In this document: in pieces, positions 39,945 to 55,420 of the stretch
Layout: each line of letters starts with the position of its first letter
How positions within the stretch are numbered: position 1 is the first letter of the stretch
NCBI GenBank assembly: GCA_030148165.1
Contig: JASBTZ010000012.1
Span: 1-56,267 of the forward strand
Reading direction: 5' to 3'
Length of the DNA: 56,267 nucleotides
Origin: Bacteroidota bacterium
GTDB taxonomy: Bacteria > Bacteroidota > Bacteroidia > Flavobacteriales_D > Crocinitomicaceae
Notes under the pieces: generated by a model
The model's input: the letters and a program-made list of their open reading frames with translations, nothing else
What the model was told of the DNA's origin: nothing
The model's database searches: none
Translations under genes and position numbers: made by a program

Positions 39945-42900
39945 CTATCCTATGTCTTCCAAACTATTAAAAGTATCGATAATAGAGAAGATTTTATCAG
40001 ACTGTTGTTCGTTGAAAACACCATCAATACCTAATGAGTGATAGTTTTTAAATGGTGCATCGTAGAGTTTTGCAGGATCTATTTTACCGTTTTTTGTGAG
40101 GAATAATTTCAGTGTATCAAGGAATTGAATTTGAACTGAATTCAGCTGGTAGGCATTAATAAAATCTGCAAAAGCTGAATTAACTTTTTCTTCCGATAAC
40201 CCCATTAGTGAGATTATGAATTTGATCAGGTTCAACTCATGACCTATTTCGCTTTCAATCTTTTCCTTTTGTAATTCATCATTGAACAGTAATTGTTCTA
40301 GGGATCTTAGTTCCTGTTCAGTGATTGTATCCCCCCTCCTAATACGATCGATCGTTAAATTGTTACTGTTTTCCCTGATGATCTGTTCCAGTCTGTGAAC
40401 ATTATTTGGAAAGGGTGATTGATATTCTTCTTCGTCTTCATTCCAATCTTGTGTTGTTTGCTTAATCTCGTACAATTCATCTTTGAAATCACTAGTAACG
40501 TACTTTTGATCTTCCGGATCAATATATTTTAGCAAGTCTCTTATTCCCACCCGAATTTTTTCCAAATGATCAATACCATCTTCTTCCCAAAAAGCTTCTA
40601 ACAAAGGTTGTTTTATTGTCTCTTCTTTCGCCTTTACTTGTGGGATTGAAGTTTTACGTAATAGCTTCTTAGATAATATTGCGGTTTTTGTGATTGGTAT
40701 GCTGTACTTTGTAACAAACTCTTCAATATCATGTGATTCCAGCTTCCTTAGAATCAAGTTAAATAGAAGTTTGTCGTAATAGCGTGATAAGTCTGATTCA
40801 TCATGACGTGGCTTAACCAAAGGTGCTAATTCATCAGAAATAATTTTACAATCCTGTTTGTTCAGATGATTCCACAGTTCACGATTGTCGCTTCCATAAT
40901 CCAAAACCGTTTTGATCTTCATTTTAACGTCAAACCTGGTTGAGTCTAAAGAATGAATATCATTGTATAGCCCATCCAGTAAAAACTGTCTATATGATTG
41001 CAGGTCTTCATTGTTTTGAAATTTACCATCTGCTAAATATTGTGCTAATTGAAGTCTTAAGCTGAAGACGATCTCTGTTAAGCTTTTTTGTGTATTGCCT
41101 TCTATCCCCATTGGGTTTTCAGCAAAAAATTCAAAATTACCACAGAGATCAAATATTAAGAAGTGTGTTTTATCTTGTCCCTGTCCAAACAAATCCGGCC
41201 TCAAACGAGAACCTCTACCGATCATCTGCCAAAACTTAGCATAGGACTTGACAGGTTTGTAGAACACAAGGTTAACACATGAAGGAGCATCAATCCCAGT
41301 ATCCATCATATCAACAGAAATAGCTATTTGAGGTAAGCGTTCTTTTTCTTCATCACAGAATCTTTGGATGAATTCTTCGGCTTTAGGCTCGCCATGAGTA
41401 ATCACTTTAACATAGTCATTTCCGTAAAGTTCCTTATCCAATTCCAGGAACATGTCCTTTAAGAAATGAGCATGTTTTTTATTTCTTGCAAATATTATTG
41501 TCTTACCTAACTCATCACCGGAACGCTTTTTAACTCCAAGTTCAGTTATCTTTTTTAGTGTTTCCAGAGCGGTGTTTTTGTTGAATAGCCATTGGTTTAA
41601 AGCGTTCTTATCAACCCATTCTTCACCAGTCGCTTCCTCACCTTCCAAAATCTCTTCTTCAAACTGCTCTTTCTCTTCTTCCGAAAGATCTGCGTATTTA
41701 ATTCCTGATGACAAGAATTTAGTAGACAGTTCAATTGTATGATATGGGACCAGATGTTTGTTAGCTACAGCCTCTTCAAATGTGTACGCATCAGTAGGAG
41801 ATTTATCCGGCAATCCAAAGACCTCATAGGTGTTTCGATCGATGCTATTCTTGGGAGTTGCTGTTAACCCAAGAAATAGCGCATCAAAATATTCAAATAT
41901 GGCTTGGTACTTCTTGTAAATGGAACGGTGTGCCTCATCAATAATAATCAGATCAAAATGACCTACACCATAGAAGCGTTTTTCATTCTCTCGGGAGCCA
42001 TCAATTAACCCCATCATCGTTTGATATGTAGAAAAAGCAAAACGAGCTTCCGGATTGTCTTTTTCTTCCAACAAATTCACGCTTTTGTGTTCAGGTAAGA
42101 GTTTTACGAAGTTTCTTTTAGCCTGACTAACCAGGCTCTTTCTGTCCGCAAGAAACAAGACCCGTTTTGCCCAGTTACATTCCAATAGCAGCTTAGAGAA
42201 TGCAATCGAAGTTCGTGTTTTACCGGTTCCGGTAGCTAAGACTAATAATGCGCCTCTATTGGTGCCAATCAAATTACCGTTCGTTTTATCAGTGCCCGCA
42301 AAATGCTCCGCAATACTTTTTATTGAGCGCATTTGATATGTTCTACCAGCAATACTTGTATCGATTGGAGCTAAACGAATATCTTCTCTGTTTTCACGAC
42401 GAAACATGATTGTCTGAAGCTCCTGCTTAGTATAAAAACCATGTACTCTTCTTGAGCCTTTATAGAATTGATCATCCCAAAGGAATGTTTCAAAACCATT
42501 CGTATAATACATAACCGGGCGACGCCCATACATCTTTTCAAGACAATCAGCATAAAGCTGTGCCTGGTTTTCTCCTTTGGAAGCGCTTTCCATTGTCTTT
42601 TTAGCCTCAACAAGTGCTAAGGGGTCTCCATCATCATCCCATAACACGTAGTCTACAAAACCCGTTTCTGTGATGTTAGTGGAACTAGGCATATACTCCA
42701 CTTTGAATTCCTTGTCTTTGGCTCCTGCAAGATCCCAACCGGCTTCGCGTAATGAAACATCAATGAAGTACTTTCTAGTCTCATACTCATTTCGCGGATG
42801 CTTCAATTCATCAAGTTCATCTGCGACGTCCTTATTCTCTTTAATCTGAGCCTGAAGTTCTTCGATTCGCTTTTTGAAGAGCTCATTCTCTTCTTCAAGT

Positions 42901-43436
42901 TTCTGATTTCTTTCCTTCGTAAATTTTAATTCAACCTGAAACTTGTTCAGGTCCTTTTCAAAGTTCACCTGTAATTCGTCTAATTGACGTTTCGAAAGAG
43001 CTGCTTTACCCTCTGTAGGAATTAGTGTTCCATCGAATATTCCAGGAAGGTCAATTGATTCTGAACTATAAGACTTGGCAAACCACTTAGTAAAATAATA
43101 CAGGTTTGAAATCACTATATCTGAATCAGTATCAGATACGGGTTTGTTGTGAATAGCAAGATTACCAACCTTACGAATAAGATCAATCTCGTTGTAGAGT
43201 TTGAAAGGAAACTGATCCTTAAAATCGTTACTCTTCATTAACGAATTCAGAGAAGTGTCATAGGGTGTTTCTAATTCACGATCATTATTGAACATCCAGT
43301 TTACAGCCAATTCCAATGCCATACGAGCATAAGCCAAAGAAGTTCGAGGGTCTGTTACCACCAACTCTTCTGCTTTGGATGCACGCTGAAATAATTCAGC
43401 CCATTCGCGTTGTAGGAAATGGAAGTTAGAATTCAT
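39945..43436 (-). CDS. hsdR: Type I restriction enzyme R subunit (HsdR)
   Basis: 1163 residues. The motor/nuclease subunit that translocates and cleaves DNA lacking the system's methylation. Domain order: N-terminal DUF4145/HEPN-like region (about 15-120, with LIRKVGNLAIHNKP), coiled coil (about 150-212), HSDR_N-type nuclease with GFVDYVL (D262) and LVEAKK (E277, K279), helicase with Walker A ATGTGKT (401-407), DEAH (500-503), GLTATP, and QMIGRGSRLR, then a C-terminal assembly region. The DUF4145-fused form is a known HsdR subgroup. Its start codon overlaps the stop of the membrane-protein gene by one base, so these are translationally coupled. It is separated from hsdS by two extra genes, which is unusual. 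Confidence 0.95.
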   Translation of the reverse strand: MNSNFHFLQREWAELFQRASKAEELVVTDPRTSLAYARMALELAVNWMFNNDRELETPYDTSLNSLMKSNDFKDQFPFKLYNEIDLIRKVGNLAIHNKPVSDTDSDIVISNLYYFTKWFAKSYSSESIDLPGIFDGTLIPTEGKAALSKRQLDELQVNFEKDLNKFQVELKFTKERNQKLEEENELFKKRIEELQAQIKENKDVADELDELKHPRNEYETRKYFIDVSLREAGWDLAGAKDKEFKVEYMPSSTNITETGFVDYVLWDDDGDPLALVEAKKTMESASKGENQAQLYADCLEKMYGRRPVMYYTNGFETFLWDDQFYKGSRRVHGFYTKQELQTIMFRRENREDIRLAPIDTSIAGRTYQMRSIKSIAEHFAGTDKTNGNLIGTNRGALLVLATGTGKTRTSIAFSKLLLECNWAKRVLFLADRKSLVSQAKRNFVKLLPEHKSVNLLEEKDNPEARFAFSTYQTMMGLIDGSRENEKRFYGVGHFDLIIIDEAHRSIYKKYQAIFEYFDALFLGLTATPKNSIDRNTYEVFGLPDKSPTDAYTFEEAVANKHLVPYHTIELSTKFLSSGIKYADLSEEEKEQFEEEILEGEEATGEEWVDKNALNQWLFNKNTALETLKKITELGVKKRSGDELGKTIIFARNKKHAHFLKDMFLELDKELYGNDYVKVITHGEPKAEEFIQRFCDEEKERLPQIAISVDMMDTGIDAPSCVNLVFYKPVKSYAKFWQMIGRGSRLRPDLFGQGQDKTHFLIFDLCGNFEFFAENPMGIEGNTQKSLTEIVFSLRLQLAQYLADGKFQNNEDLQSYRQFLLDGLYNDIHSLDSTRFDVKMKIKTVLDYGSDNRELWNHLNKQDCKIISDELAPLVKPRHDESDLSRYYDKLLFNLILRKLESHDIEEFVTKYSIPITKTAILSKKLLRKTSIPQVKAKEETIKQPLLEAFWEEDGIDHLEKIRVGIRDLLKYIDPEDQKYVTSDFKDELYEIKQTTQDWNEDEEEYQSPFPNNVHRLEQIIRENSNNLTIDRIRRGDTITEQELRSLEQLLFNDELQKEKIESEIGHELNLIKFIISLMGLSEEKVNSAFADFINAYQLNSVQIQFLDTLKLFLTKNGKIDPAKLYDAPFKNYHSLGIDGVFNEQQSDKIFSIIDTFNSLEDIG

Positions 43437-44164
43437 TATTCAATATGATTTCTTGTACTATAGTTAGGGTTTACCTTATAAATTGTTTCCCTGAATTTAT
43501 TATGATCTTCCAAAAATGCCAAAATATAACCTTCCATTTCTTGGAAACACTCTTGATATCTGGGATCATGACTAGGTAATCCGGGGCAGAGTCTATAAAA
43601 ATGTCCTGTTCCTCCTGGACCAAAATTGTTTGGCATAAAATCAATTAATTTACCCAGATGATCCGTCATTGATAATTGAAGAGTTCTGAGCGTTTTATGA
43701 CGGAGTATGTTCTCGTCTCGTACTAAAATGTTGTAGTAGTCTTCCAAATAACCAAGTTGATTATTGAAGAAAGAATGATTCGATAACAAACGGTCGTAAA
43801 AGAAATATATGAGATCATCAGGTGAAGTATAATTATCCAGTTCGTTGATAGCCAATGTATCCAACAGTTTTTTCCTATCTGAGTAACCGAAAAATTCATG
43901 GAATAACAAGTATAATCCAATAATAAGAAGTATCATTCCAGTGATGAAAACAATAATCTGAAAAACGGATGATTCATTATCACAGATATTACCGTCAGAC
44001 AAAATGTAGTCTATCAACTGAATGAAAATCGGCAACTGAGTACCAATAAGAATGGCAGCAACCCAAAGTAGCAGTAAGCCTGCCTTTGTTTTCGCCCCCC
44101 TAAAAAGTAGTTTACTAATCAGGGCATCCTTTAATCTTTGACTCATTATTGCCATTTTAGTCAT
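43436..44164 (-). CDS. Two-helix membrane protein between DUF3825 gene and hsdR
   Basis: 242 residues. Two membrane helices near residues 28-52 (GLLLLWVAAILIGTQLPIFI) and 67-88 (VFQIIVFITGMILLIIGLYL) enclose a short external loop with two cysteines. The remaining 150 residues look cytoplasmic and partly helical, with many aromatic residues (DDLIYFFYDRLLSNHSFFNNQLGYLEDYYNILVRDE). No family recognised. Start: ATG directly follows the DUF3825 gene's stop; internal in-frame ATGs at codons 4 and 7 are alternatives. It is sandwiched with zero or one-base spacing between two system genes, so it belongs to the system. A membrane effector or anchoring role is possible. Confidence 0.85.
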   Translation of the reverse strand: MTKMAIMSQRLKDALISKLLFRGAKTKAGLLLLWVAAILIGTQLPIFIQLIDYILSDGNICDNESSVFQIIVFITGMILLIIGLYLLFHEFFGYSDRKKLLDTLAINELDNYTSPDDLIYFFYDRLLSNHSFFNNQLGYLEDYYNILVRDENILRHKTLRTLQLSMTDHLGKLIDFMPNNFGPGGTGHFYRLCPGLPSHDPRYQECFQEMEGYILAFLEDHNKFRETIYKVNPNYSTRNHIE

Positions 44165-45352
44165 TTACGGGTTTAACCATTCTCGATCGGGCTTCGCTAA
44201 TAATCTTGCATTGTTATATGCCCAATCCAATGGTAAGATAGTATTTGCACGATAAATTTCATTTTCTCTTGCGACGACCAAGGCTAAATCTGCCTTTTCA
44301 GGTTGTTCTAAACAAAGTGGCAACAGCAATTGTATACCACCATTATAAAATTGAGGGATGGCGGTTTTATAGTTTCTTCTCACTCTCTTCAGAGCACTAT
44401 CGATCGCTGAACGAAGACGTTCCATGATCTGATCGTCTGAAAGCGTTTTAAATGACTCCGGAAAGCGATCCTCGCGATCATCTACGATATGTTCAAAGTC
44501 AGGGATAAGTCTTCTGTTTACATCATACAATAAATCAATTGGGTCGGAGAAATAATGCGCTAGTTTAGGTCGCTCTTTGAAGTGTGTCATTATACGATCA
44601 CTTTCTCGCTCAAACTTAATGAACTTCCATGGTTGAGAATCCAAATTCAAGTATGAATATGTTGGCGACGGTGGACGGTTAACCTCAAAATAAGCGAATA
44701 TTTCTTCTTGCTTGGTGGTAACCAGACCTGTGTTGAAAGCGGCGTACTGTCGAACACCATTTTGTTCAGCTATTTCAATCTTCCCCTCTTTCTTTAATTG
44801 AATGAAAGTTTGATGAATGTAGCTGTCAAGAACAGGTTTTTTACCCGTTTTTTCATCTAAATAGTCCCATTCTTCTGGTTGAGCAAGTATCGCTAAATCA
44901 TCAATAGCTTTTTCCCAATTACCGAGGTAAGCAAATTTTTCCAAACCATTGCGGGTATCCAGGCATATTACATTGTCTGCACTTAGCCTACCATCATCAA
45001 CCGGCGTGAATTCGACCAAGAAATCTTCTCTTATCTTTTTAAAGCCATATTGACCTACAACCTGTGTGTGATGAAACCAATATTTTTCGTCTTCATGTTC
45101 AATATATCCCCAGCCATCAGACATTTGATATTCCTGTATTACACCTCGTTTACGTTCAATTGACCGAGTGACATTTGTGGCACTTTTTCCTTTATCAGTT
45201 TCTTCCAATTCAAACTCAACAATCTCGCCCTCATAAAGTGCTTTACATTTATCTTGAACCTCAGAATTATGAACAAAATATTCATTCAAATCTTCATCAA
45301 GAATTTTCCCGAATCCCCGAGGGATATTAAAAAAAGAGACTTTTCCTTTCAT
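44165..45352 (-). CDS. Double cold-shock domain protein with DUF3825
   Basis: 395 residues. Two tandem cold-shock-like domains (OB-fold single-strand nucleic-acid binders): CSD1 with GKVSFFNIPRGFGKI (R12-I17) and YFVHNS (25-30), and CSD2 with DGWGYIEHED (79-88) and YWFHHTQ (91-97). The C-terminal part (about 153-390) matches my memory of DUF3825 (LEKFAYLGNWEKAIDDLAILAQPEEW), a poorly characterised domain associated with RNA-related architectures; that identification is not certain. It has its own promoter with the shared palindrome, 45 bases upstream of the ATG. The next gene starts with no gap after its stop. It likely binds RNA or single-stranded DNA. Confidence 0.85.
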   Translation of the reverse strand: MKGKVSFFNIPRGFGKILDEDLNEYFVHNSEVQDKCKALYEGEIVEFELEETDKGKSATNVTRSIERKRGVIQEYQMSDGWGYIEHEDEKYWFHHTQVVGQYGFKKIREDFLVEFTPVDDGRLSADNVICLDTRNGLEKFAYLGNWEKAIDDLAILAQPEEWDYLDEKTGKKPVLDSYIHQTFIQLKKEGKIEIAEQNGVRQYAAFNTGLVTTKQEEIFAYFEVNRPPSPTYSYLNLDSQPWKFIKFERESDRIMTHFKERPKLAHYFSDPIDLLYDVNRRLIPDFEHIVDDREDRFPESFKTLSDDQIMERLRSAIDSALKRVRRNYKTAIPQFYNGGIQLLLPLCLEQPEKADLALVVARENEIYRANTILPLDWAYNNARLLAKPDREWLNP

Positions 45353-45378: not shown

Positions 45379-45413
45379 CAAACTTAAAACTAACTTGTGC
45401 AGTCGAACTGCAT
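45379..45413 (-). promoter_or_regulatory. System promoter 1: palindrome GTGCAGTCGAACTGCAT plus -7 box
   Basis: The 17-base palindrome at 45397-45413 is followed on the minus strand, after exactly 10 bases, by TAAGTTTG (45379-45386), a perfect -7 box. The start codon of the cold-shock/DUF3825 gene lies 26 bases downstream. There is no TTG at -33; the palindrome occupies that position. Confidence 0.75.
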
Positions 45414-45428
45414 TTAATAATTTATTTG

Positions 45429-46610
45429 CTACAATTCTCCATTAAACGCCTTTTGTAAAAGGCTGTTAAACAAATCTTCTGCTTTATCTAAGCTGGCTTG
45501 TGCCTTTGTTTGCTGACTTTTCAAAATCTCAACTCGTTTTTCGAACAGCCTTTGCAAATCGATGTGGGGAAGTGGAATGTTAGTTCCTTTCATAGCCCCG
45601 ACATTAAAATGTTTATGTATTCCACCAACAGACTTGCCAGCAACTAACTCTTTACCCCTTTCAGAATTTAGAAAATGGCATAAATAATTCGCGTTAAGTT
45701 TTGACTTGTCAACTCTTACGATGATCAAATCGATACAGTTAATTCCATCTAGTTCTTTGGTAATTAAGGCAGCTGTACCTGTATTTCCAGTTCTAACTAC
45801 CACGACATCACCGTCCTTTAATATAGACTTCTTAAGTTCATTCTTATGTGTCTCTTGAGAGAAATAAACGACATCACTTAGATCTATTTTAAAAGGCTTG
45901 ACATTTAGTGATCTTAATGCAATCACGCCTTTATCAACGTAATAAGACGCAGGTTTTATTACAACACCAACTGAAATTTTCACGCAAACATCTTCTCCTT
46001 TATATTTCTCCCACCCCTTTGGGTTCGTCACCGGATCCCCAAACATATCCAAGAATAAACTTTGGGTAAGTTCATCGTATTTGGCAATGAGGGCTTTGGT
46101 TTTTTGGCGGTAAGCATCTGCTGCGTCTAAAATGGCTGCTATCTTTTTTTGGATGGGTAGTGGGGGGAGGGGGATATCGAGATTATCAAAATGTTCACTT
46201 TTAAGATTGTTAATATTGGCACCCTCAGCTAATCCCTTTATTGTCCTTTTATAATATTCTGTTTCGAAATAATGTTTGAAATATGATAAATCTATTTTAG
46301 ATATGTCTGGTCTGAGTACCTTACAAAAGGCTCCAAAACTTGCGTTCATGTCTTGTGAAACCATCGCGGCCTTACCGACAATTGAAATACTGCCACTTGA
46401 TGCAGCAATTAATACATCGCCTTTTTTTAATAATTGCTTTGGTTTTACTATTCGTTTTGGAACATAAACATAATCTTCTTCAAGAATTTTAGATTCTTGA
46501 ATATTACCAGCTCTTAGTACTGGAATATAATCTTGAGAATATTCATCAGTAGAATCCTTCTTTGAATATGAAAGACCTCTAATTTGGAACATTACATCTT
46601 TTAACATCAT
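45429..46610 (-). CDS. hsdS: Type I restriction specificity subunit (HsdS)
   Basis: 393 residues. Two target-recognition domains (about 1-150 and 190-350), each followed by a conserved helix region: IPLPPLPIQKKIAAILDAADAYRQKTKALIAKYDELTQSLFLDMFG (about 148-192) and IPLPHIDLQRLFEKRVEIL near 340-360. It sets the DNA sequence bound by both methylation and restriction complexes. The start overlaps the hsdM stop by 4 bases, so the pair is coupled. The N-terminal TRD begins very near the protein start, which is usual for this group. The recognised sequence cannot be predicted from the sequence. Confidence 0.95.
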   Translation of the reverse strand: MMLKDVMFQIRGLSYSKKDSTDEYSQDYIPVLRAGNIQESKILEEDYVYVPKRIVKPKQLLKKGDVLIAASSGSISIVGKAAMVSQDMNASFGAFCKVLRPDISKIDLSYFKHYFETEYYKRTIKGLAEGANINNLKSEHFDNLDIPLPPLPIQKKIAAILDAADAYRQKTKALIAKYDELTQSLFLDMFGDPVTNPKGWEKYKGEDVCVKISVGVVIKPASYYVDKGVIALRSLNVKPFKIDLSDVVYFSQETHKNELKKSILKDGDVVVVRTGNTGTAALITKELDGINCIDLIIVRVDKSKLNANYLCHFLNSERGKELVAGKSVGGIHKHFNVGAMKGTNIPLPHIDLQRLFEKRVEILKSQQTKAQASLDKAEDLFNSLLQKAFNGEL

Positions 46611-48148
46611 CTCAACAACTCCTTTAAAGTTGACAACGCTTCTGTTCTTTCTTTGTCCAGCTCCTCGATCTGTTTGATGATGACATCAGGAGCTTCGTAT
46701 TCGATTTCTTCATACACAATCTCCTTGTAGCGATTAATGGAAAGATCCCAATCGTTTTCTTTGATATCTGAGAAAGGAACAAGGAAGGATTGGTCGGTTC
46801 GACTTCGACTACGCTCAGCCACCCCGTTTCTCTCAGCAAATCTGGCGATGATGTCCGGTAAGTTGAACTTGTCGTGTAGTGCTTTTTGTTGTTCCTCTGA
46901 CAGTTCGTCAGCTCCTTCACCAAAGGCAAAGGCATCAAACACTTCTTCCGGAACTAATAGGTTTCGTTTGTCGTCCAGGGATTTACCATCCGCTTTCATG
47001 TCGTAGAACCACACGTTGTCTGTGCCACCTGTACCTGTTTTGGTAAAGATCATGATGGCCGTGCTTACTCCTGCATAGGGTTTGAAAACCCCGCTCGGCA
47101 TGGAAATTACTGCCTCCAATTTGTTGTTTGCAATGATCTCTTCGCGAATGCTTTTGTGGGCTTTTCCACTTCCAAACAGTACTCCATCCGGTACGATCAC
47201 TGCACAACGCCCACCTTTTTTGAGCATTCGCAACATCAGGGCAAGGAATAGCAATTCCGTTTTGGTAGTGTTGGTTACGTTTTTAAGTCCAGGTGCAATA
47301 CTTTCCTTGTCAATAGTTCCTTTGAATGGAGGGTTTGCAAGGATGAGCGTATAGGCATCGTGTACCGTATTGTCTTTACTCACTGCATCCACATCAATGA
47401 TGTTTGGCTCTTCCACACCGTGTAGGTATAAATTCATGGAAGCAATGCGCAACATGGTTGCATCGAATTCCATTCCGTTGAACATTTCTTTGTTGATGTG
47501 GTTGGAATCCTTGTCGAGGTCGGTAACACTGTAGTGTTTGTCGATGTATTCTTTTACCGCTACTAAAAATCCTGCGGAACCTGCTGAAGGATCACAAGCA
47601 GTATCTTCTAATGTAGGCTTCATCAGCTCCACCATTAATTTAATGATGTGTCGAGGTGTTCTAAACTGACCTGCAGTACCGCCACCTTCGAGTTTCGAAA
47701 GCAAGTATTCGTAGATGTCACCTTTTGTGTCCTGGTTAGACATATTGATGTTCTCCAACTTCTCCATCACCTGATCCAATACCATTGGCTTTGAGATGCC
47801 AAAGGTTGCTCCGCGCATATAGGTTGAGAACAGGCTCTTTTCTTGACCCAATGTTCGAATGAATGGGAAGATACCATCAACAGTATTACTAAAGATCATG
47901 TGGCGCGCATTCACATCCATTTCTTTCAGGTTCTTCCAGCGGAATTGTTGCTGATCTTCACTGAAGATCGGGGTATATTTAAAACCTCTTTTGGCCTTTA
48001 ACTCGTTTCGTATCTCAGTCTCATCCAAATCTTTAATGAAGATGAGGTATGTGAGCTGTTCAACTATTGTGATCGTGTTAGTAATACCTCCGGTCCAAAA
48101 GGTGTTCCAGATCTGATCGATTTGTGATTTTAATTCTCCTGTTATCAT
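46607..48148 (-). CDS. hsdM: Type I restriction DNA methyltransferase subunit (HsdM)
   Basis: 513 residues. N6-adenine methyltransferase of a type I system: N-terminal helical HsdM domain (about 5-130), motif I DPSAGSAGF (186-194), and catalytic motif IV ANPPF (271-275), intact. A spaced segment of about residues 442-451 (VAERSRSRTD) is encoded by a palindromic repeat-like sequence and looks inserted before the conserved SFLVPFSDIKENDWDLSINRYKE. Its promoter carries the shared palindrome. It is followed by hsdS with a 4-base overlap. Length is normal for the family. Confidence 0.95.
   Translation of the reverse strand: MITGELKSQIDQIWNTFWTGGITNTITIVEQLTYLIFIKDLDETEIRNELKAKRGFKYTPIFSEDQQQFRWKNLKEMDVNARHMIFSNTVDGIFPFIRTLGQEKSLFSTYMRGATFGISKPMVLDQVMEKLENINMSNQDTKGDIYEYLLSKLEGGGTAGQFRTPRHIIKLMVELMKPTLEDTACDPSAGSAGFLVAVKEYIDKHYSVTDLDKDSNHINKEMFNGMEFDATMLRIASMNLYLHGVEEPNIIDVDAVSKDNTVHDAYTLILANPPFKGTIDKESIAPGLKNVTNTTKTELLFLALMLRMLKKGGRCAVIVPDGVLFGSGKAHKSIREEIIANNKLEAVISMPSGVFKPYAGVSTAIMIFTKTGTGGTDNVWFYDMKADGKSLDDKRNLLVPEEVFDAFAFGEGADELSEEQQKALHDKFNLPDIIARFAERNGVAERSRSRTDQSFLVPFSDIKENDWDLSINRYKEIVYEEIEYEAPDVIIKQIEELDKERTEALSTLKELLR
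46795..46823. repeat. Short palindrome-like repeat inside hsdM
   Basis: The 29-base segment contains TTCGACTTCGACTACGCTCA, resembling the interspersed elements with core TCGACTACGCTCA (or GGCTGAGCGTAGTCGAAG) often seen in flavobacterial and other Bacteroidota genomes. It is in frame and adds about 9-10 codons. There is no second copy that I found in this window. Confidence 0.45.
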
Positions 48149-48177: not shown

Positions 48178-48212
48178 TAAAGATAAATTTAATGTGTGCA
48201 GTATAGGTGCAT
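48178..48212 (-). promoter_or_regulatory. System promoter 2: palindrome GTGCAGTATAGGTGCAT plus -7 box
   Basis: Palindrome at 48196-48212, then exactly 10 bases, then TATCTTTA (48178-48185) on the minus strand; one mismatch from TAnnTTTG. The hsdM start codon is 29 bases further. Confidence 0.75.
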
Positions 48213-48219
48213 AGTTGAA

Positions 48220-49380
48220 TTAAATCTTCTGAGCTGATTTAACCCTAGTCATTGTTTGGTTTCGACGATGATCAAAGTAATCTTCCAATTCAGCTTCAAT
48301 TCTGTCATTTTCATTAAGTGAATACTGAGAAACAATGTTTGCCGGTATAATGCAACTGTCCGCTCCATTGTTTGGTCTAAAGAAGGCAAATCCTTTTTGA
48401 TAGTTAAAGTTAAATACCACCCCCAAAACTAAATTACTGTCGGTAATTTGGATTTCAGTTGTACTTTCCCAATTTTCTTGTTTTGGATTACCATCGACAT
48501 ATATTTTGAACCAAGTCAGAACATCCATAAGTTGATAAACAAGACTGGTTACCAGGTAACTGTTTTGAACTATTCTGATGTGTTGATCAATGGCAGAACG
48601 GTGAGATCCGGCTTGCGTGTAAATCAACAACCCTCTAATTAAATTTGACACTTCGGCCGGAAGGTGAGTCTCATCAAGATGCTTGAAGCCTTTCTCTTCA
48701 AAGTAGTTACCGTCGCGATCCTTACCTGCGAGAAATTTGCTTGATTCATTTAATGCTATACCAGATTGTATGAACTCAGCCGGCAACAATTTATACTTAT
48801 TAAAGGCGACAAAAAGGTCTTCGATTAACTTTCGGATCGTATTGAAGTGATCGTTCGTATTACCAGAATCTTCGATCTTTAATAGGCTGAGGAGATCTTG
48901 TCCTGCTGATTCACCTATATAGCGTTCGGTACACACATCAAAGGCTCGTTTATGTTTGAAGCGTAACTGTGTGTCTTCTTGTTTATCCGCCGCAGCTTTG
49001 ATATCAACAAAAAGCTGCTCTATGTCGTTATCATCGGCCTTTTTATATACCTTAAGAAAGGCTTTTGTGAACTGGCGATCATCGTATGCTTCTGCTTGGC
49101 CGGTTAATACAAATATTTCGAACTTTTTGGGGAGTTGTAGAATTCTCTCCTTCGCACGGTGAACGTTGTCGGTATCTTCCGATCCTGCAATATCACTATC
49201 ACTTTCTAAAAATTTTGCATCTAAGAGAACTCCATCGTAAAAGGTATAATTTCTCTCCAATTCATCTATACCGTCTAACGATTTGAATGGTACCAGGTTA
49301 ATCCCGTTTCGTTTAGCACGACCTTTGGTTCCTGTCAGGGTTTCATGCTCATCATCAATCCATAATACATTGTATTCCAT
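48220..49380 (-). CDS. Response regulator fused to a helical domain and a cold-shock domain
   Basis: 386 residues. Receiver domain about 1-130 with the acidic pair D9 D10 (LWIDDE), phospho-acceptor D54 (GVLLDAKF), T93 (VLTGQ) and conserved lysine K113 or K114 (VYKKAD): all key residues present. The middle (about 140-300) is helical (TIRKLIEDLFVAFNKYKLL ... EVSNLIRGLLIYTQAGSHRSAIDQH) and reminds one of a HEPN-like bundle, unproven. The end (about 318-380) is cold-shock-like: LGVVFNFNYQKGFAFFRP with RNP1-type KGFAFF (329-334). So a phosphorylation-controlled RNA/ssDNA-binding output is likely. It starts 2 bases after its partner kinase gene's stop. No DNA-binding HTH is present. Confidence 0.9.
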   Translation of the reverse strand: MEYNVLWIDDEHETLTGTKGRAKRNGINLVPFKSLDGIDELERNYTFYDGVLLDAKFLESDSDIAGSEDTDNVHRAKERILQLPKKFEIFVLTGQAEAYDDRQFTKAFLKVYKKADDNDIEQLFVDIKAAADKQEDTQLRFKHKRAFDVCTERYIGESAGQDLLSLLKIEDSGNTNDHFNTIRKLIEDLFVAFNKYKLLPAEFIQSGIALNESSKFLAGKDRDGNYFEEKGFKHLDETHLPAEVSNLIRGLLIYTQAGSHRSAIDQHIRIVQNSYLVTSLVYQLMDVLTWFKIYVDGNPKQENWESTTEIQITDSNLVLGVVFNFNYQKGFAFFRPNNGADSCIIPANIVSQYSLNENDRIEAELEDYFDHRRNQTMTRVKSAQKI

Positions 49381-49382
49381 AC

Positions 49383-51827
49383 TTAACCTATCAATTTTAT
49401 CTTAAACTTAAATTCGAATTCAACCGGGTAAACATCCTTATCATCAAGATGTAACTCCCAATTTGGATTTCCAAAATATGTGGCTATCCTATTAATATCA
49501 TATCCCCCTAATCCTGTTCCTTTCACGGGATGCGCAGTTGTATATTTTGTGGTGAATTTTTCTTGGGTAAAATTCTTTGGAAAAGGATTACCATTATTCC
49601 TAATACGAACAAATAAATAATCATCCTGATCCACCAATTCGATCACAACTTCATTTGTTACGTTTTTTTCGGGAAAAGCATATTTATTTGCGTTCGTAAG
49701 TACATTATCCAACAACACCTGTAATAGTGTTACATTGGTTTTAATTCCTCGGGTACCAAGTTCCTGACCCTTCAGTAGAAATTTCTTAAGCTCGAATTTG
49801 AACCCATTATTATTCAACGATGAAACAAAGTTGTTCAATTGCTTAAGTGAAATCAAGGATAGTGGGTAATCGTCAAGGATCAGGCCGTTCTCACCTTTTT
49901 CAAGAATCTCCGTCATGTGTCCGACATCTTTTTTGATTTCCTTCAATGCCTCAATTACATCTAAACCATAGAACTTCTTGAATTCATTATTAATTGACTC
50001 TATCGACTTCTCATTCTTTGTCAAGAAATCAAGAATATTATCTGCCCAATCCAATATATTTTGTCTTGGACGACCTAAGGAGTGTTTTAACGATGCAAAC
50101 TCATCGAATTTCTTCAGGGTTTGACCATGTGCTAATGCATTTCGTTCCGCCTCCAAAGACTTGATCTTATCGGAAAGTTCAAATAGCCCCTGAACCTTAC
50201 CTTCCTGTTCCTGGATGGAAGGAAGTTTAACTACAATCTTTAATATGTCTGCTTTCCTGATAGATGGAATACTTCCGGTGGTGCTATAACCTTCCAGCTG
50301 TTCTTTAACGTAGTCGGCATCTAACTCATTAATTAGATAGGTGCTATTGACTTTCGACGAGTCAATAAAAAAGGCTTCTATATCATTTGAAATATAAATT
50401 GGGATGCCAACATACTTGAAGTAAGTTGGTTTCAAGGATTTCCATCTCGTAGCTAATAAAAGACAAGATGAATCAATACGTTTAAACCCAGGTCTGGTAA
50501 TATGTCCAACATCTATTTTAGAGAGATCAAGAGAACTGTTTAAAGGGTCATTGCTTAAATCCCGAATGCGTACAATAGGTCCAAGCTCATTCACCTCGGC
50601 CCTGAATCCCCTGAATGGCTTTATGATGTCATTTAACTGTACGCCATCAATATTTTTGAATCGGTATCGATCTCCAACCAAACTATAGTCATCCTCACGA
50701 ATGCGACCAATATCAACAAACCATGAGTAGTTATTTTCACTCGTATCTGCATAGATCCCCCCTAATTTGTAGTCATCCAGTGTCTTTTTTTTAGTGGAAG
50801 GATTATATAAAGAATCTGCATTGATGAAACGGATCATACCGCGCGTTTCTTTCTGCTTGTTGATAATTAGGATACAAGTTTTTATTCCAGTTCCCTGAAA
50901 AATTCCTGATGGTAGTGAAATTACTGTTTCTAGATTTCCCGATTCAACCAGCATTTCCCGAATCTTTTTATCGCCAGATGCATTCGACAAAAACCCAAGA
51001 GGAAGAACAACAATCATTCTACCGGATCTTGTCAATGAACTCAATCCTTTGTATAGTAGGAACTGTTCAGCAGTTTTTACGAAAGGTGGGACATCGAAAT
51101 CATTGTGGGAAATCCTCGCACGAAATGGTGGTGTAGAAACGATTAAATCAAATTTTCTATCGGGCCAGTTGGAAATCGAATTGTCACATGAAAACCTTGA
51201 AGTTCCAGGTCTTCTTGATGCAATTATTCTCAAAGCACCAATTGCCCATGTTCTTCTGTTAAGTTCTTGTCCGTAATAAGTACTTCCATTCTCAAAAGAA
51301 ACACCATAAGATGCCAATCCAGCAAATGGATTGAATACTTCATCAGAATGCCTTTCTTTCGTAAGACCTGATATAAACCTTGATAATTCAAGAGGCTGTA
51401 AATGCTCAACCCCACGAACACCTTGAGATTCAATTATTTTATGAAGAACACTATCAAATATGCCTGGAAAGTGATCATCAAGAACTTTTTTATTGATTGA
51501 TCCGATTACACCTAATATTCTGTGTAGTCCATCGTCTTTAATATGTCTGAGGATAGGAGAAATCTCATTATGAATCTCAATCAAATCATGTCTCGCGTTC
51601 TTTCTATGAAGCTTTTCATATACCAATCTCTCAAATTCAATTCTATCTCTAGTTTCGTAAATGAGTTGATCAGAAAGAATCCCTTCTCGATAGTATGAAA
51701 GAAGTAGAAGCACAATATGATAATCTTCCGGACGAACTGCCTCGTTTCTAAGTACATTAAAAATGTCCCAAACGCGTTGCATAACAGCTTCTATTGGATT
51801 AATATCATCAAGTGTAAATTCTCTCAT
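49383..51827 (-). CDS. Fusion of methyltransferase-like domain, half specificity subunit and histidine kinase
   Basis: 814 residues. N-terminal helical HsdM-like part (1-150); Rossmann MTase region with motif I-like EVFNPFAGLASYG (163-175) and motif IV-like LIVSTPPF (228-235). The usual catalytic N of NPPF is a T (T232), so methylation is probably lost or weak. Residues about 395-545 look like one HsdS recognition half (VGHITRPGF ... GSIPSIRKADILKIVVKLP), then a helical linker. Residues about 570-814 are a histidine kinase: H-box LKHSLGRPRQN (H582), N-box LLDNVLTNANKYAF (N708, N712), G1 RNNGNPFP (744-749) and G2 GTGLGGY (770-776). It would bind a DNA target and signal to the adjacent response regulator. 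Own promoter with the shared palindrome. Confidence 0.9.
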   Translation of the reverse strand: MREFTLDDINPIEAVMQRVWDIFNVLRNEAVRPEDYHIVLLLLSYYREGILSDQLIYETRDRIEFERLVYEKLHRKNARHDLIEIHNEISPILRHIKDDGLHRILGVIGSINKKVLDDHFPGIFDSVLHKIIESQGVRGVEHLQPLELSRFISGLTKERHSDEVFNPFAGLASYGVSFENGSTYYGQELNRRTWAIGALRIIASRRPGTSRFSCDNSISNWPDRKFDLIVSTPPFRARISHNDFDVPPFVKTAEQFLLYKGLSSLTRSGRMIVVLPLGFLSNASGDKKIREMLVESGNLETVISLPSGIFQGTGIKTCILIINKQKETRGMIRFINADSLYNPSTKKKTLDDYKLGGIYADTSENNYSWFVDIGRIREDDYSLVGDRYRFKNIDGVQLNDIIKPFRGFRAEVNELGPIVRIRDLSNDPLNSSLDLSKIDVGHITRPGFKRIDSSCLLLATRWKSLKPTYFKYVGIPIYISNDIEAFFIDSSKVNSTYLINELDADYVKEQLEGYSTTGSIPSIRKADILKIVVKLPSIQEQEGKVQGLFELSDKIKSLEAERNALAHGQTLKKFDEFASLKHSLGRPRQNILDWADNILDFLTKNEKSIESINNEFKKFYGLDVIEALKEIKKDVGHMTEILEKGENGLILDDYPLSLISLKQLNNFVSSLNNNGFKFELKKFLLKGQELGTRGIKTNVTLLQVLLDNVLTNANKYAFPEKNVTNEVVIELVDQDDYLFVRIRNNGNPFPKNFTQEKFTTKYTTAHPVKGTGLGGYDINRIATYFGNPNWELHLDDKDVYPVEFEFKFKIKLIG

Positions 51828-51851: not shown

Positions 51852-51886
51852 CAAATATCAGATTTTTCTGTGCAGTATAGGCGCAC
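51852..51886 (-). promoter_or_regulatory. System promoter 3: palindrome GTGCAGTATAGGCGCAC plus -7 box
   Basis: Palindrome at 51870-51886, exactly 10 bases, then GATATTTG (51852-51859) on the minus strand, one mismatch from TAnnTTTG. The start codon of the methylase-kinase gene is 24 bases downstream. Confidence 0.7.
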
Positions 51887-51888
51887 TC

Positions 51889-52869
51889 TTACTGATTAAT
51901 TACTTTTTTAGCTTCCTCAATTAGAATTGTTTTCAAATTGGCAGGACTAATTACCTGGACATCTCCACCAAAAGACATAAGATAACTTGTGAATTCTCGG
52001 TTTATCTTTAGATTTAAATGAATTCGGCCGTCTTTAAGTTTTTGAGATCCATGAATGGGCTTCGACAACACATAGGGAAGACGATGCTCCGAAAACTCCA
52101 GGACTATGTCTTCAGCAAATTGATCTTCAGGATTGGTAACACCGATTATATCCTCGAAGTATTCCTCGAAGTCTATCTGGCAATTTACGTAAGAGTTGGA
52201 TAGAGACTCAATTCCTGCAATTCTATCTAATGCAAGATTTTGAATTTTGTTGAATTCATCATTCAGACCAAACAGGAACCAACGATTATTATACTGCTTC
52301 AAGTGGTAGGGGTGTATGATGTATTCGATAGGTTTTTCCATTTTGAAACCTTGATATATGATCTTTAGGACCACTTTAGATTTAATGAAATTGTACAATT
52401 CCTGTAGGTGTTCAATTCCCCTTAAGTATGGATTATGATCAAAACTTATTATCTCATTGTTTTGTGCTTCCAAGGTGTCTCTTAGTTTAGTTTCCAGTTC
52501 GGCCATCCATTCGAAATTTGGAAGGCCTTTTATTCGACCAAAAATTTCAAGAGCATCTGATATCTGCTCCATTTCTTCAGGGTTAATTGGACTTTTCTCG
52601 ATACTAAAACTATCGTCGTCATACCGATAATATACCTGTTTACCATCTCTCATAGATTCAATGGGTGCAGTGTATCCAGCGTCACTTTTCATGAAGGTTA
52701 TATCATCGAATATTTGCCTTCTAGAAACTGTAATAGCCTCACCGACATGTTCAGAAATTCCATTTGAACAGGCATCAATCAGATCATTAATGTAGAACCG
52801 ACGGTATTTATTGCTAAAGCAGCGGTCTAGGATCTTGTATCGGATGAGAGCTCTTTTATTAGTGGCCAT
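51889..52869 (-). CDS. WYL-domain transcription regulator
   Basis: 326 residues. N-terminal winged HTH-like region about 1-75 (INDLIDACSNGISEHVGEAITVSRRQIFDDITFM), a middle linker, and a WYL domain about 160-255 with KIIYQGFKMEKPIEYIIHPYHLKQYNNRWFLFGLNDEF. WYL proteins often control defence islands and respond to nucleic-acid ligands. The gene sits between system promoter 4's gene and system promoter 3, same strand as all partners. No palindrome was found directly upstream of its own start, only the terminator of the 55-aa gene. It is the natural candidate to bind the four palindromes. Confidence 0.92.
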   Translation of the reverse strand: MATNKRALIRYKILDRCFSNKYRRFYINDLIDACSNGISEHVGEAITVSRRQIFDDITFMKSDAGYTAPIESMRDGKQVYYRYDDDSFSIEKSPINPEEMEQISDALEIFGRIKGLPNFEWMAELETKLRDTLEAQNNEIISFDHNPYLRGIEHLQELYNFIKSKVVLKIIYQGFKMEKPIEYIIHPYHLKQYNNRWFLFGLNDEFNKIQNLALDRIAGIESLSNSYVNCQIDFEEYFEDIIGVTNPEDQFAEDIVLEFSEHRLPYVLSKPIHGSQKLKDGRIHLNLKINREFTSYLMSFGGDVQVISPANLKTILIEEAKKVINQ

Positions 52870-53198: not shown

Positions 53199-53233
53199 CA
53201 AACTTAAACTGAACCTGTGCGGTGTAACTGCAC
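53199..53233 (-). promoter_or_regulatory. System promoter 4: palindrome GTGCGGTGTAACTGCAC plus -7 box
   Basis: Palindrome at 53217-53233, exactly 10 bases, then TAAGTTTG (53199-53206), a perfect -7 box on the minus strand. The leader before the 55-aa gene is about 95 bases, longer than at the three other promoters. Confidence 0.75.
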
Positions 53234-53944: not shown

Positions 53945-54180
53945 TTCGTGGGTTTTGTTAGTGGAAGGATACTGTAGTAGACCTTCCCATTAATTTCCTT
54001 GGCCTCTATTAGGCCCTCATTTTTCCAATTCAGCAGCGTACGAACGCTAACATCATAAAGCTCGGCTGCTTTCTTGCGGCTCACCCAGTAAATTTGCTGG
54101 GGAGCCTGCAAGGAGATTTTCTCTAAAGCGACTTCGAATGATTTAATGAGTCGCTTAAGTTCCGCTGTGTTTTTCATCAC
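53941..54180 (-). CDS. Helix-turn-helix excisionase-like protein
   Basis: 79 residues. A long helical start is followed by YWVSRKKAAELYDVSVRTLLNWKNEGLIEAKEINGKVYYS, a MerR-like/excisionase-type winged HTH: residues about 31-70. In Bacteroidota elements such proteins are directionality factors that help excision, and their position directly after the integrase fits. It overlaps the integrase by 26 bases and the Cys-rich gene by 4. Confidence 0.85.
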   Translation of the reverse strand: MMKNTAELKRLIKSFEVALEKISLQAPQQIYWVSRKKAAELYDVSVRTLLNWKNEGLIEAKEINGKVYYSILPLTKPTK

Positions 54181-55420
54181 GATCCGGTTTAATTACCCTG
54201 AGTTTTACAGGATGGTTAATACTAGGTTTCTCCCTCATGTGATCGCCAAATGCCTGCATATCACCAAGCAGTTTCTTATCAATGAGTCGTGAATAGTGTT
54301 GTGTCATTCTTATATCGGCATGTCCTAAGACATGTTGAATGGTTACAAGTGGTACGCCCGCTGTTAGAGCCAGCGTCGCGAAAGAATGGCGCGCGCAGTG
54401 ACTGGACAATGGCTTATCAATCGTGGCAAGTTTGGTAAGACGCTTTAAGTTTCGATTAAATGTTTGATTACAATAAACCGGTAGAAGCGTTCCTTTTTTA
54501 CGTGCCAGGTAATGGTTCTTGTATTTGTTCAGGATTTGGAGGGCTTCATCGAATAAAGGTGTAGTGTAGGCAATCTTCGTTTTCTTTCGATTGCCTCGAA
54601 TTACAAGCTGTTCTCCCTGGCGTTCAATCTGATCTTCTGATAATTCGGCGAGATCAGAATACGAAAGCCCGGTTAGAGCCATAAAGAGAAACATGTCGCG
54701 AGTAAGTCGAAGCGAAGAGGAAATGTTTTCAAGATCTCTTAGATCATCGACTTCTTCTTCCGTTAGGAACGTTCTTGGCTTTACTTTTTTCGATAGCTTA
54801 AGCCCAAGAAAGGGGTCGTTTTTGATCATCTCATACTGTTGGTAGTGAGAAGTAAAACGCTTTAATCTTTCGAAGTGCTTAACGCGGCCATTATTCTCTG
54901 AAGAGGTATTCTCCATCATCCACTGATTGAACTGATCGATAAACATTCGATCGTATTCTAGGATCGAAATATCTTTTCGACTATAGCAGTCCTTAATAAA
55001 TCGAGTTAGAAATTTCTGGGTCGTGTAGTAGTTCTTCAAAGTCCCTTGAGATAGGACGCCTCCTTTGACTTCTGTTTCCAGGAATCGAAGGAACTTGTCA
55101 AACAGTGATAAGAGATTCATTGACTTAATTGTTTTGGTCTTAAAAGCCATCTTTACATCTGATGGGTGTTTGAGTCTATCATGCCTTTGAAGCTCAAAGG
55201 CAAATCCTTTAACCTGATCGAGGAACTCTTCGAGTTTTTCTTGCTTTTGCTTATCTACAAGCTTTTGCTCCTTTGAATTGTATTCGTATGAATTATTAAT
55301 TGAGATTCCAGTACAAATCTCCGATTGTTTATTTATGTATTTGATTCGAACGTATAGCGCAACAGCATCCCTTTGCTTTCGTGTAATAATGCTAAACGTG
55401 ATTCTATCATTGGTTTTCAT
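54155..55420 (-). CDS. Tyrosine recombinase/integrase of the Bacteroidota element type
   Basis: 421 residues. Arm-binding domain (about 1-90), core-binding SAM-like domain (about 100-200), catalytic domain (about 215-385). Catalytic residues: HCAR at 341-344 (H341, R344), GH at 366-367, nucleophile Y376 in MTQHYSRL. The first conserved Arg position has Ser (S253 in LTGLSYSDL), as in IntDOT-like integrases of Bacteroidota. It should integrate or excise the island at the tRNA-Pro 3' end 550 bases away. Start ATG at 55420. Confidence 0.95.
   Translation of the reverse strand: MKTNDRITFSIITRKQRDAVALYVRIKYINKQSEICTGISINNSYEYNSKEQKLVDKQKQEKLEEFLDQVKGFAFELQRHDRLKHPSDVKMAFKTKTIKSMNLLSLFDKFLRFLETEVKGGVLSQGTLKNYYTTQKFLTRFIKDCYSRKDISILEYDRMFIDQFNQWMMENTSSENNGRVKHFERLKRFTSHYQQYEMIKNDPFLGLKLSKKVKPRTFLTEEEVDDLRDLENISSSLRLTRDMFLFMALTGLSYSDLAELSEDQIERQGEQLVIRGNRKKTKIAYTTPLFDEALQILNKYKNHYLARKKGTLLPVYCNQTFNRNLKRLTKLATIDKPLSSHCARHSFATLALTAGVPLVTIQHVLGHADIRMTQHYSRLIDKKLLGDMQAFGDHMREKPSINHPVKLRVIKPDRDEKHSGT

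Follow-up and report, generated by a model that had tools for sequence, protein, structure and literature searches.

A predicted two-component system with a type I methylase-like sensor in WYL-associated restriction islands of Bacteroidota

What is a type I DNA methylase fold doing in the same polypeptide as the ATP-binding part of a histidine kinase? The question is raised by one gene in a 56,267-nucleotide stretch of DNA (the window) from a Bacteroidota bacterium of the Crocinitomicaceae (assembly GCA_030148165.1, contig JASBTZ010000012.1), whose product an earlier note had described as a possible DNA-reading sensor kinase. The answer toward which we lean, with a confidence somewhat above even, is that the gene encodes the sensor of a cytoplasmic two-component system residing in WYL-controlled type I restriction islands, and that this methylase-fold sensor probably reads DNA.

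Anatomy of the fusion protein

The gene lies on the minus strand (49383..51827) as a single 814-aa open reading frame, the plus strand across 49383-51827 being full of stops, and it encodes a type I methylase-like domain, one HsdS-like recognition domain (TRD), coiled coil/DHp-like helices and a HATPase domain. Pfam places N6_Mtase at residues 118-389 (50661..51476, nucleotide coordinates derived from the residue numbers; E 3.7e-33), Methylase_S at 437-564 (50136..50519; E 5e-5) and HATPase_c at 700-786 (49470..49730; E 2.5e-7), all on the minus strand and all above the curated cut-offs. Compared with solved structures, a 47-row profile of the kinase family returns HsdM chains at profile positions ~63-413, HsdS chains at 483-567 and histidine kinase chains at ~545-817, in this order along the protein. 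An AlphaFold2 model of the kinase alone, from an alignment of 47 of the 55 family kinases described below, has a mean pLDDT of 84.8 and a pTM of 0.65, and its weakest inner stretch (568-578) lies immediately N-terminal of His582; with Foldseek, this model best matches type I M subunits, DNA-bound PacII M1M2S and CamA. PADLOC assigns type I methylase and specificity models to the protein, and NCBIfam gives weak matches to models of hsdM and of histidine kinases, the former at 65.3 bits vs. a cut-off of 242.75; a single Methylase_S stretch is present, short of the two TRDs by which HsdS is recognized.

A genome scan with a six-row alignment recovered 56 further kinase loci, labelled as 54 Bacteroidota, one “Algicola” and one “Fibrobacter” MAG; at least two of them come from genomes already contained in the first set, obtained with a receiver profile, and L040 and L098 are probably one genome. 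Together with the window, these 57 loci provide 55 kinases longer than 700 aa, leaving out L081 (contig end) and L062 (split, 658 aa), and counting L089, whose kinase is cut at its start. His582, the H-box histidine in the family alignment (50082..50084, minus strand), is invariant in all 55, as are residues of the ATP boxes (N712 of the N-box N708/N712, N744 and G746 of G1, G772 and G774 of G2); this invariance excludes chance, and the methylase-like/half-HsdS/kinase fusion is confirmed as real. The anatomy proposed in the earlier note is thus borne out, including TPPF instead of NPPF at motif IV (residues 232-235; 51123..51134, minus strand).

Long relatives of the kinase were first met in a Myroides plasmid, in further relatives and in a human-gut scaffold labelled as phage. 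When viral and genome contigs were scanned with single sequences, no relatives were returned, and the six-row alignment gave none when run against viral contigs. The receiver profile found matches in 14 of 395 genomes of the phylum, that of the window included, and a second count of the regulator gave 13 of 395, again with that of the window, G285 being a short C-terminal match. Among 13 other regulator neighborhoods, 11 contain a kinase beside the regulator, with methylase/TRD similarity in 10 of these 11; L049 and L050 are weak regulator matches without a kinase.

The earlier note had taken the methylase part as probably a DNA sensor. The motif IV Asn is indeed missing from 23/55 kinases, which carry T, S, C, H, I or other residues, but the loss is not family-wide, since 32/55 keep it, and methylation could persist in the latter. 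By comparison, NPPF or NPPY is found in 47 of 48 neighboring HsdM proteins (L081, with its cut-off kinase, excluded), the remaining one being a fragment. On a sensor tree built without the motif IV columns, the Asn state changes at least 16 times (shuffled-label mean 17.7), and the starred branches of this tree force at least eight changes. The aromatic residue at position 235, which we take to be the base-stacking one, is retained in 48/55 kinases, and E188, the motif II acid by its place, in 55/55. Motif I reads NPFAG vs. DPxxG in HsdM, and its invariance (~165-172) in the scan set arises by construction, as the scan pattern contains motif I. The scattered motif IV Asn, together with the conserved aromatic residue and E188, suggests that catalysis is not under steady selection in this family, whereas the fold and perhaps SAM binding probably are.

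Several members depart from the common plan. L018, L043 and L044, which belong to the kinases selected without motif I, have a badly degraded methylase part, and Pfam gives no N6_Mtase match for L018. The kinases at L018:6872-9466 and L047:6695-9508 bear an N-terminal HARE-HTH-like stretch just below the Pfam cut-off (25.6 and 24.4 vs. 25.9 bits). HARE-HTH is a chromatin/restriction-associated module. At L046:6759-9050, a kinase adjoining a family regulator shows weak HATPase_c only in Pfam, with no methylase/TRD match, and L097:7835-12226 encodes a 1463-aa version with ~650 extra N-terminal residues, the palindrome described below being absent upstream.

The ATPase part of the kinase matches histidine kinase structures, and His582, situated within a long helix of the AlphaFold2 model, is also invariant in the 15 kinases picked without the motif I criterion (L046 left out). 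The kinase module claimed by the earlier note stands as to its H-, N-, G1 and G2 box residues, but the Pfam HisKA (DHp) family gives no match in the window kinase, and from the four printed alignments to the C-terminal part only that of HprS covers the His582 region, putting His582 on a His upstream of the HELRTP box of HprS itself, out of register. His582 is consequently a predicted phospho-acceptor, on the basis of invariance, sequence context and position rather than of alignment to a known H-box. This mismatch would suit a protein that is an active or former N6-adenine methylase, with its GHKL part working as a regulatory ATPase and not as a histidine kinase; GHKL ATPases of the paraMORC kind do occur in restriction-modification (R-M) loci (PMC8011034), and NPP[FYL] is kept in 32/55 members. 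We nonetheless regard this possibility as unlikely, considering the universal His582, an adjacent regulator with receiver residues in 55/55 cases, the repeated changes of the motif IV Asn and the TPPF of the window protein.

The adjacent regulator and the island

The gene following the kinase (48220..49380, minus strand) encodes a 386-aa protein composed of a receiver (1-132), a helical domain (135-300) and a cold-shock/OB-like end (304-386). It is the next gene after the kinase in 54/55 loci, and both reading frames, with starts as called, overlap in 31 of these 54. Pfam gives no significant family for the window protein, Response_reg included, and in one homologue Response_reg matches below the cut-off (E 0.022). 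Nonetheless D10, D54, K114, R183 and H260 are invariant in 55/55 homologues, D9 is present in 54/55 and position 93 is T or S in 55/55; Asp10, Asp54 and Lys114 were likewise invariant in the 16 receivers of the first regulator set. The AlphaFold2 model (pLDDT 89.9) displays a clean (beta-alpha)5 receiver, the helical domain and the OB-like end, and Foldseek relates it to PorX and other receivers, and to CspA. Judged by its sequence, the gene next to the kinase encodes a response regulator whose key receiver residues do not vary, in line with the likely phosphotransfer partner claimed by the earlier note. Its output appears exchangeable, since 9/55 regulators are short (280-311 aa), the OB part being absent judging by length, and in L048:2438-3385 the family receiver is fused to SLFN_AlbA_2 instead of the helical/OB output. 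The helical domain was also compared with DUF4145/HEPN, as found at the N-terminus of HsdR, and this candidate was rejected as weak (hhalign probability 6%, P 0.0064, with four control segments at P 0.11-0.37); several partner HsdR proteins have no DUF4145-like start.

Natural chimeras bear on the pairing of both proteins. When the sensor is alike (≥0.6) and the transmitter different (<0.4), mean regulator identity is 0.31 (25 pairs); when the transmitter is alike (≥0.6) and the sensor different (<0.5), it is 0.59, with single pairs down to 0.36 (20 pairs); with both parts alike, it is 0.72 (87 pairs). Over all pairs, the partial rank correlation of the regulator is 0.47 with the transmitter and 0.45 with the sensor, which does not separate them, so the case for co-variation rests on the chimeric pairs, which share members. 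The transmitter thus seems to co-vary with the regulator, as a cognate kinase-regulator pair predicts, and we consider this supportive and not conclusive.

Downstream of the regulator, on the same minus strand, lie hsdM (46607..48148), hsdS with two Methylase_S stretches (45429..46610) and hsdR with an N-terminal DUF4145 (39945..43436), all three recognized by Pfam and PADLOC. Between hsdS and hsdR, and also on the minus strand, there are genes for a protein with cold-shock domains and DUF3825 (44165-45352; Pfam) and for a predicted membrane protein that Saf_2TM matches below threshold (43436-44164; E 0.014), both candidate extra effectors. Upstream of the kinase, a WYL-domain regulator is the conserved partner (51889..52869, minus strand; WYL and WCX domains above the Pfam cut-off), and a phage-type tyrosine integrase near the island (54155-55420, minus strand; Pfam) suggests mobility. 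The usual order is WYL-kinase-regulator-hsdM-hsdS: the WYL gene lies at most two genes upstream of the kinase in 47/55 loci, and hsdM (at most four genes after the regulator), hsdS and hsdR are found in 45, 40 and 28 of the 55, respectively; these last three counts are lower bounds, as some loci run into the end of a contig and gene classes were assigned by BLAST against the genes of the window. A DUF2130 protein also recurs in the islands (L018:5612-6868, L067, L069, L078, L093, L106), its gene being placed directly behind an exact copy of the palindrome described next in five loci.

The window holds four exact copies of the palindrome TGCR-N7-YGCA, upstream of the kinase (51871..51885), of hsdM (48197..48211) and of the CSD-DUF3825 gene (45398..45412), and ~350 bp upstream of the WYL gene (53218..53232). 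Considering the 64 distinct loci with upstream sequence (duplicate genomes L038=L087 and L042=L100 counted once), the site precedes the kinase exactly in 50 and with at most one mismatch in 59, compared with a background elsewhere, per 180 bp, of 0.0099 sites (exact) and 0.135 sites (one mismatch); over 55 loci its density is 5.9 per 10 kb in intergenic DNA vs. 0.29 within genes. Such a bipartite target resembles those of type I systems, and it could be imagined that the kinase itself binds it in its own promoter, the more so as the exact site is seldom found at the WYL gene’s own promoter (-200 to +60; 1/44 kinase islands). We deem this highly improbable, since the site follows the WYL protein: in genomes devoid of the regulator, three of four close WYL orthologues (L137, L138, L140) carry an exact copy within ~300 bp of their start, even though L139 shows none in that interval, and three more distant WYL genes have none near their start. 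The WYL protein BrxR binds an inverted repeat, and a second such site exists in its island (PMC9122601). TGCR-N7-YGCA, including the copy upstream of the kinase, is therefore predicted to be the probable WYL operator.

What the sensor may recognize

The linkage of the kinase to hsdM and hsdS, and the homology of its TRD to HsdS, would be expected if the kinase sensed the modification state of the sites of its local R-M system and tuned restriction accordingly, which is close to the report on methylation state that the earlier note had envisaged. The comparison of loci disfavors it. Among the 71 best pairs listed, kinase identity is 0.52-0.97 and that of the kinase TRD 0.41-0.96, while HsdS identity is 0.19-0.43; among 62 pairs with sensor and transmitter both ≥0.6 alike and a comparable hsdM, HsdM identity falls below 0.4 in 40, and HsdM identity hardly follows kinase identity (rho 0.05-0.13), HsdM and HsdS being in these comparisons the first found per locus and not always the adjacent ones. 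A match of the kinase TRD to the local HsdS was likewise ruled out, as the TRD ranks the HsdS of its own locus at a median of 23 of 41, and first in 2/41. The sensor is thus decoupled from the local R-M specificity, and the own-site explanation retains a small probability. With its TRD conserved beside unrelated HsdS proteins and a random-like rank of its own HsdS, the kinase-regulator pair seems to be a portable module, and not a reader of the neighboring R-M recognition site.

The ligand could also be a protein. The sensor might act as a decoy or guard: by imitating a type I methylase, it would attract the anti-restriction DNA mimics of phages, and their binding would trigger the kinase. This idea would account for a methylase/TRD fold that is retained although neither catalysis nor local specificity is needed. 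The best Foldseek match of the kinase is an Ocr-bound type I MTase, which shows only the fold, and in close members the good conservation of the TRD goes beyond the need of a mere bait; we therefore consider the decoy improbable too.

In the DNA-reading explanation that we favor, the sensor would correspond to one half of a type I methylase (methylase fold plus one TRD), connected through the coiled coil to the kinase transmitter. A kinase dimer would bring together two methylase-TRD arms as in M2S, which could clamp a bipartite DNA target. The role of the sensor would be to read DNA and not to methylate it, the catalytic Asn being dispensable and most members retaining an aromatic residue at the next position of the motif. 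DNA binding would alter the coiled coil and lead to phosphorylation of His582, from which the phosphate would pass to Asp54 in the neighboring regulator. The output part of this regulator, helical and OB-like, may act on nucleic acid or the restriction machinery.

Known systems and significance

A search of titles, abstracts and passages, with mostly non-subscription coverage, revealed no described fusion of methylase, TRD and histidine kinase; the pair thus appears as a variant of R-M-linked cytoplasmic two-component systems with an input domain not found described there. The nearest published relative is the R-M-linked pair HEF_HK (PF19191)/Response_reg_2 (PF19192), of the paraMORC group, which also consists of a soluble GHKL kinase and an adjacent receiver formerly missed by Pfam, beside R-M genes (PMC8011034). 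HEF_HK systems mostly have an N-terminal HATPase_c_3 and accompany mainly type II R-M systems with C5 methylases, and, unlike for the window kinase, no methylase/TRD fusion figures in the accessible parts of their description (PMC8011034). Neither PF19191 nor PF19192 matches the window kinase or regulator at E≤0.1, both are absent for the 55 regulators among the families listed (best 25 of 34), and genome searches with these models gave no match, nor did any of 14 controls.

PADLOC assigned no family to four regulators. Detocs consists of three genes, encoding the sensor DtcA, DtcB and the effector DtcC, and its effector is an ATP-cleaving PNP. It is an anti-phage defense that shares two-component signaling with the present pair (PMC11249213), and differs from it in the methylase-like sensor and in the PNP domain, which was not found among the Pfam families listed for the window and the regulators. 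Other GHKL or histidine kinases have been linked to defense. CapK/CapS connects a GHKL kinase to the control of immune operons, its target being a serine in a repressor with a STAS domain, with neither a DNA methylase sensor nor a receiver in the published passages (PMC13373217); the Schlafen-histidine kinase-wHTH protein of BREX loci is also a histidine kinase fusion in a restriction-like defense locus, its fused part being a Schlafen RNase and not a methylase/TRD (PMC12839542). BrxR/CapW resembles the WYL protein as the regulator of a defense island with inverted-repeat sites (PMC9122601), although here the WYL gene precedes a kinase-regulator pair and the repeat is TGCR-N7-YGCA, a putative site. 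Other kinase or WYL links have been reported (PMC12839542, PMC7159879, PMC12255303). As to the methylase side, the kinase sensor shares methylase fold and TRD with HsdM/HsdS, and differs in its single TRD, in NPFAG instead of DPxxG at motif I, in the frequent loss of the motif IV Asn and in the added transmitter. MADS also comprises methylase and specificity genes within a larger defense operon, but its models are missed by the kinase and hsdM (25.4 and 94.4 vs. 720 bits for MAD2) and by hsdS (98.3 vs. 400 bits for MAD5).

The control of type I restriction has been described through subunit supply and proteolysis. We give an even chance to the broader proposal that the methylase fold here serves as the input of a histidine kinase, in a portable surveillance pair that reads DNA, or catches the DNA mimics with which phages oppose restriction, independently of the accompanying restriction enzyme, and licenses defense through phosphotransfer. 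For its study, His582 and Asp54 are residues that can be tested, TGCR-N7-YGCA is a probable operator, and natural chimeras separate sensor from transmitter. This proposal would account for proteins whose annotation says no more than “N-6 DNA methylase,” such as that on the Myroides plasmid, and, if true, these islands would possess a direct signaling route from DNA reading to defense.
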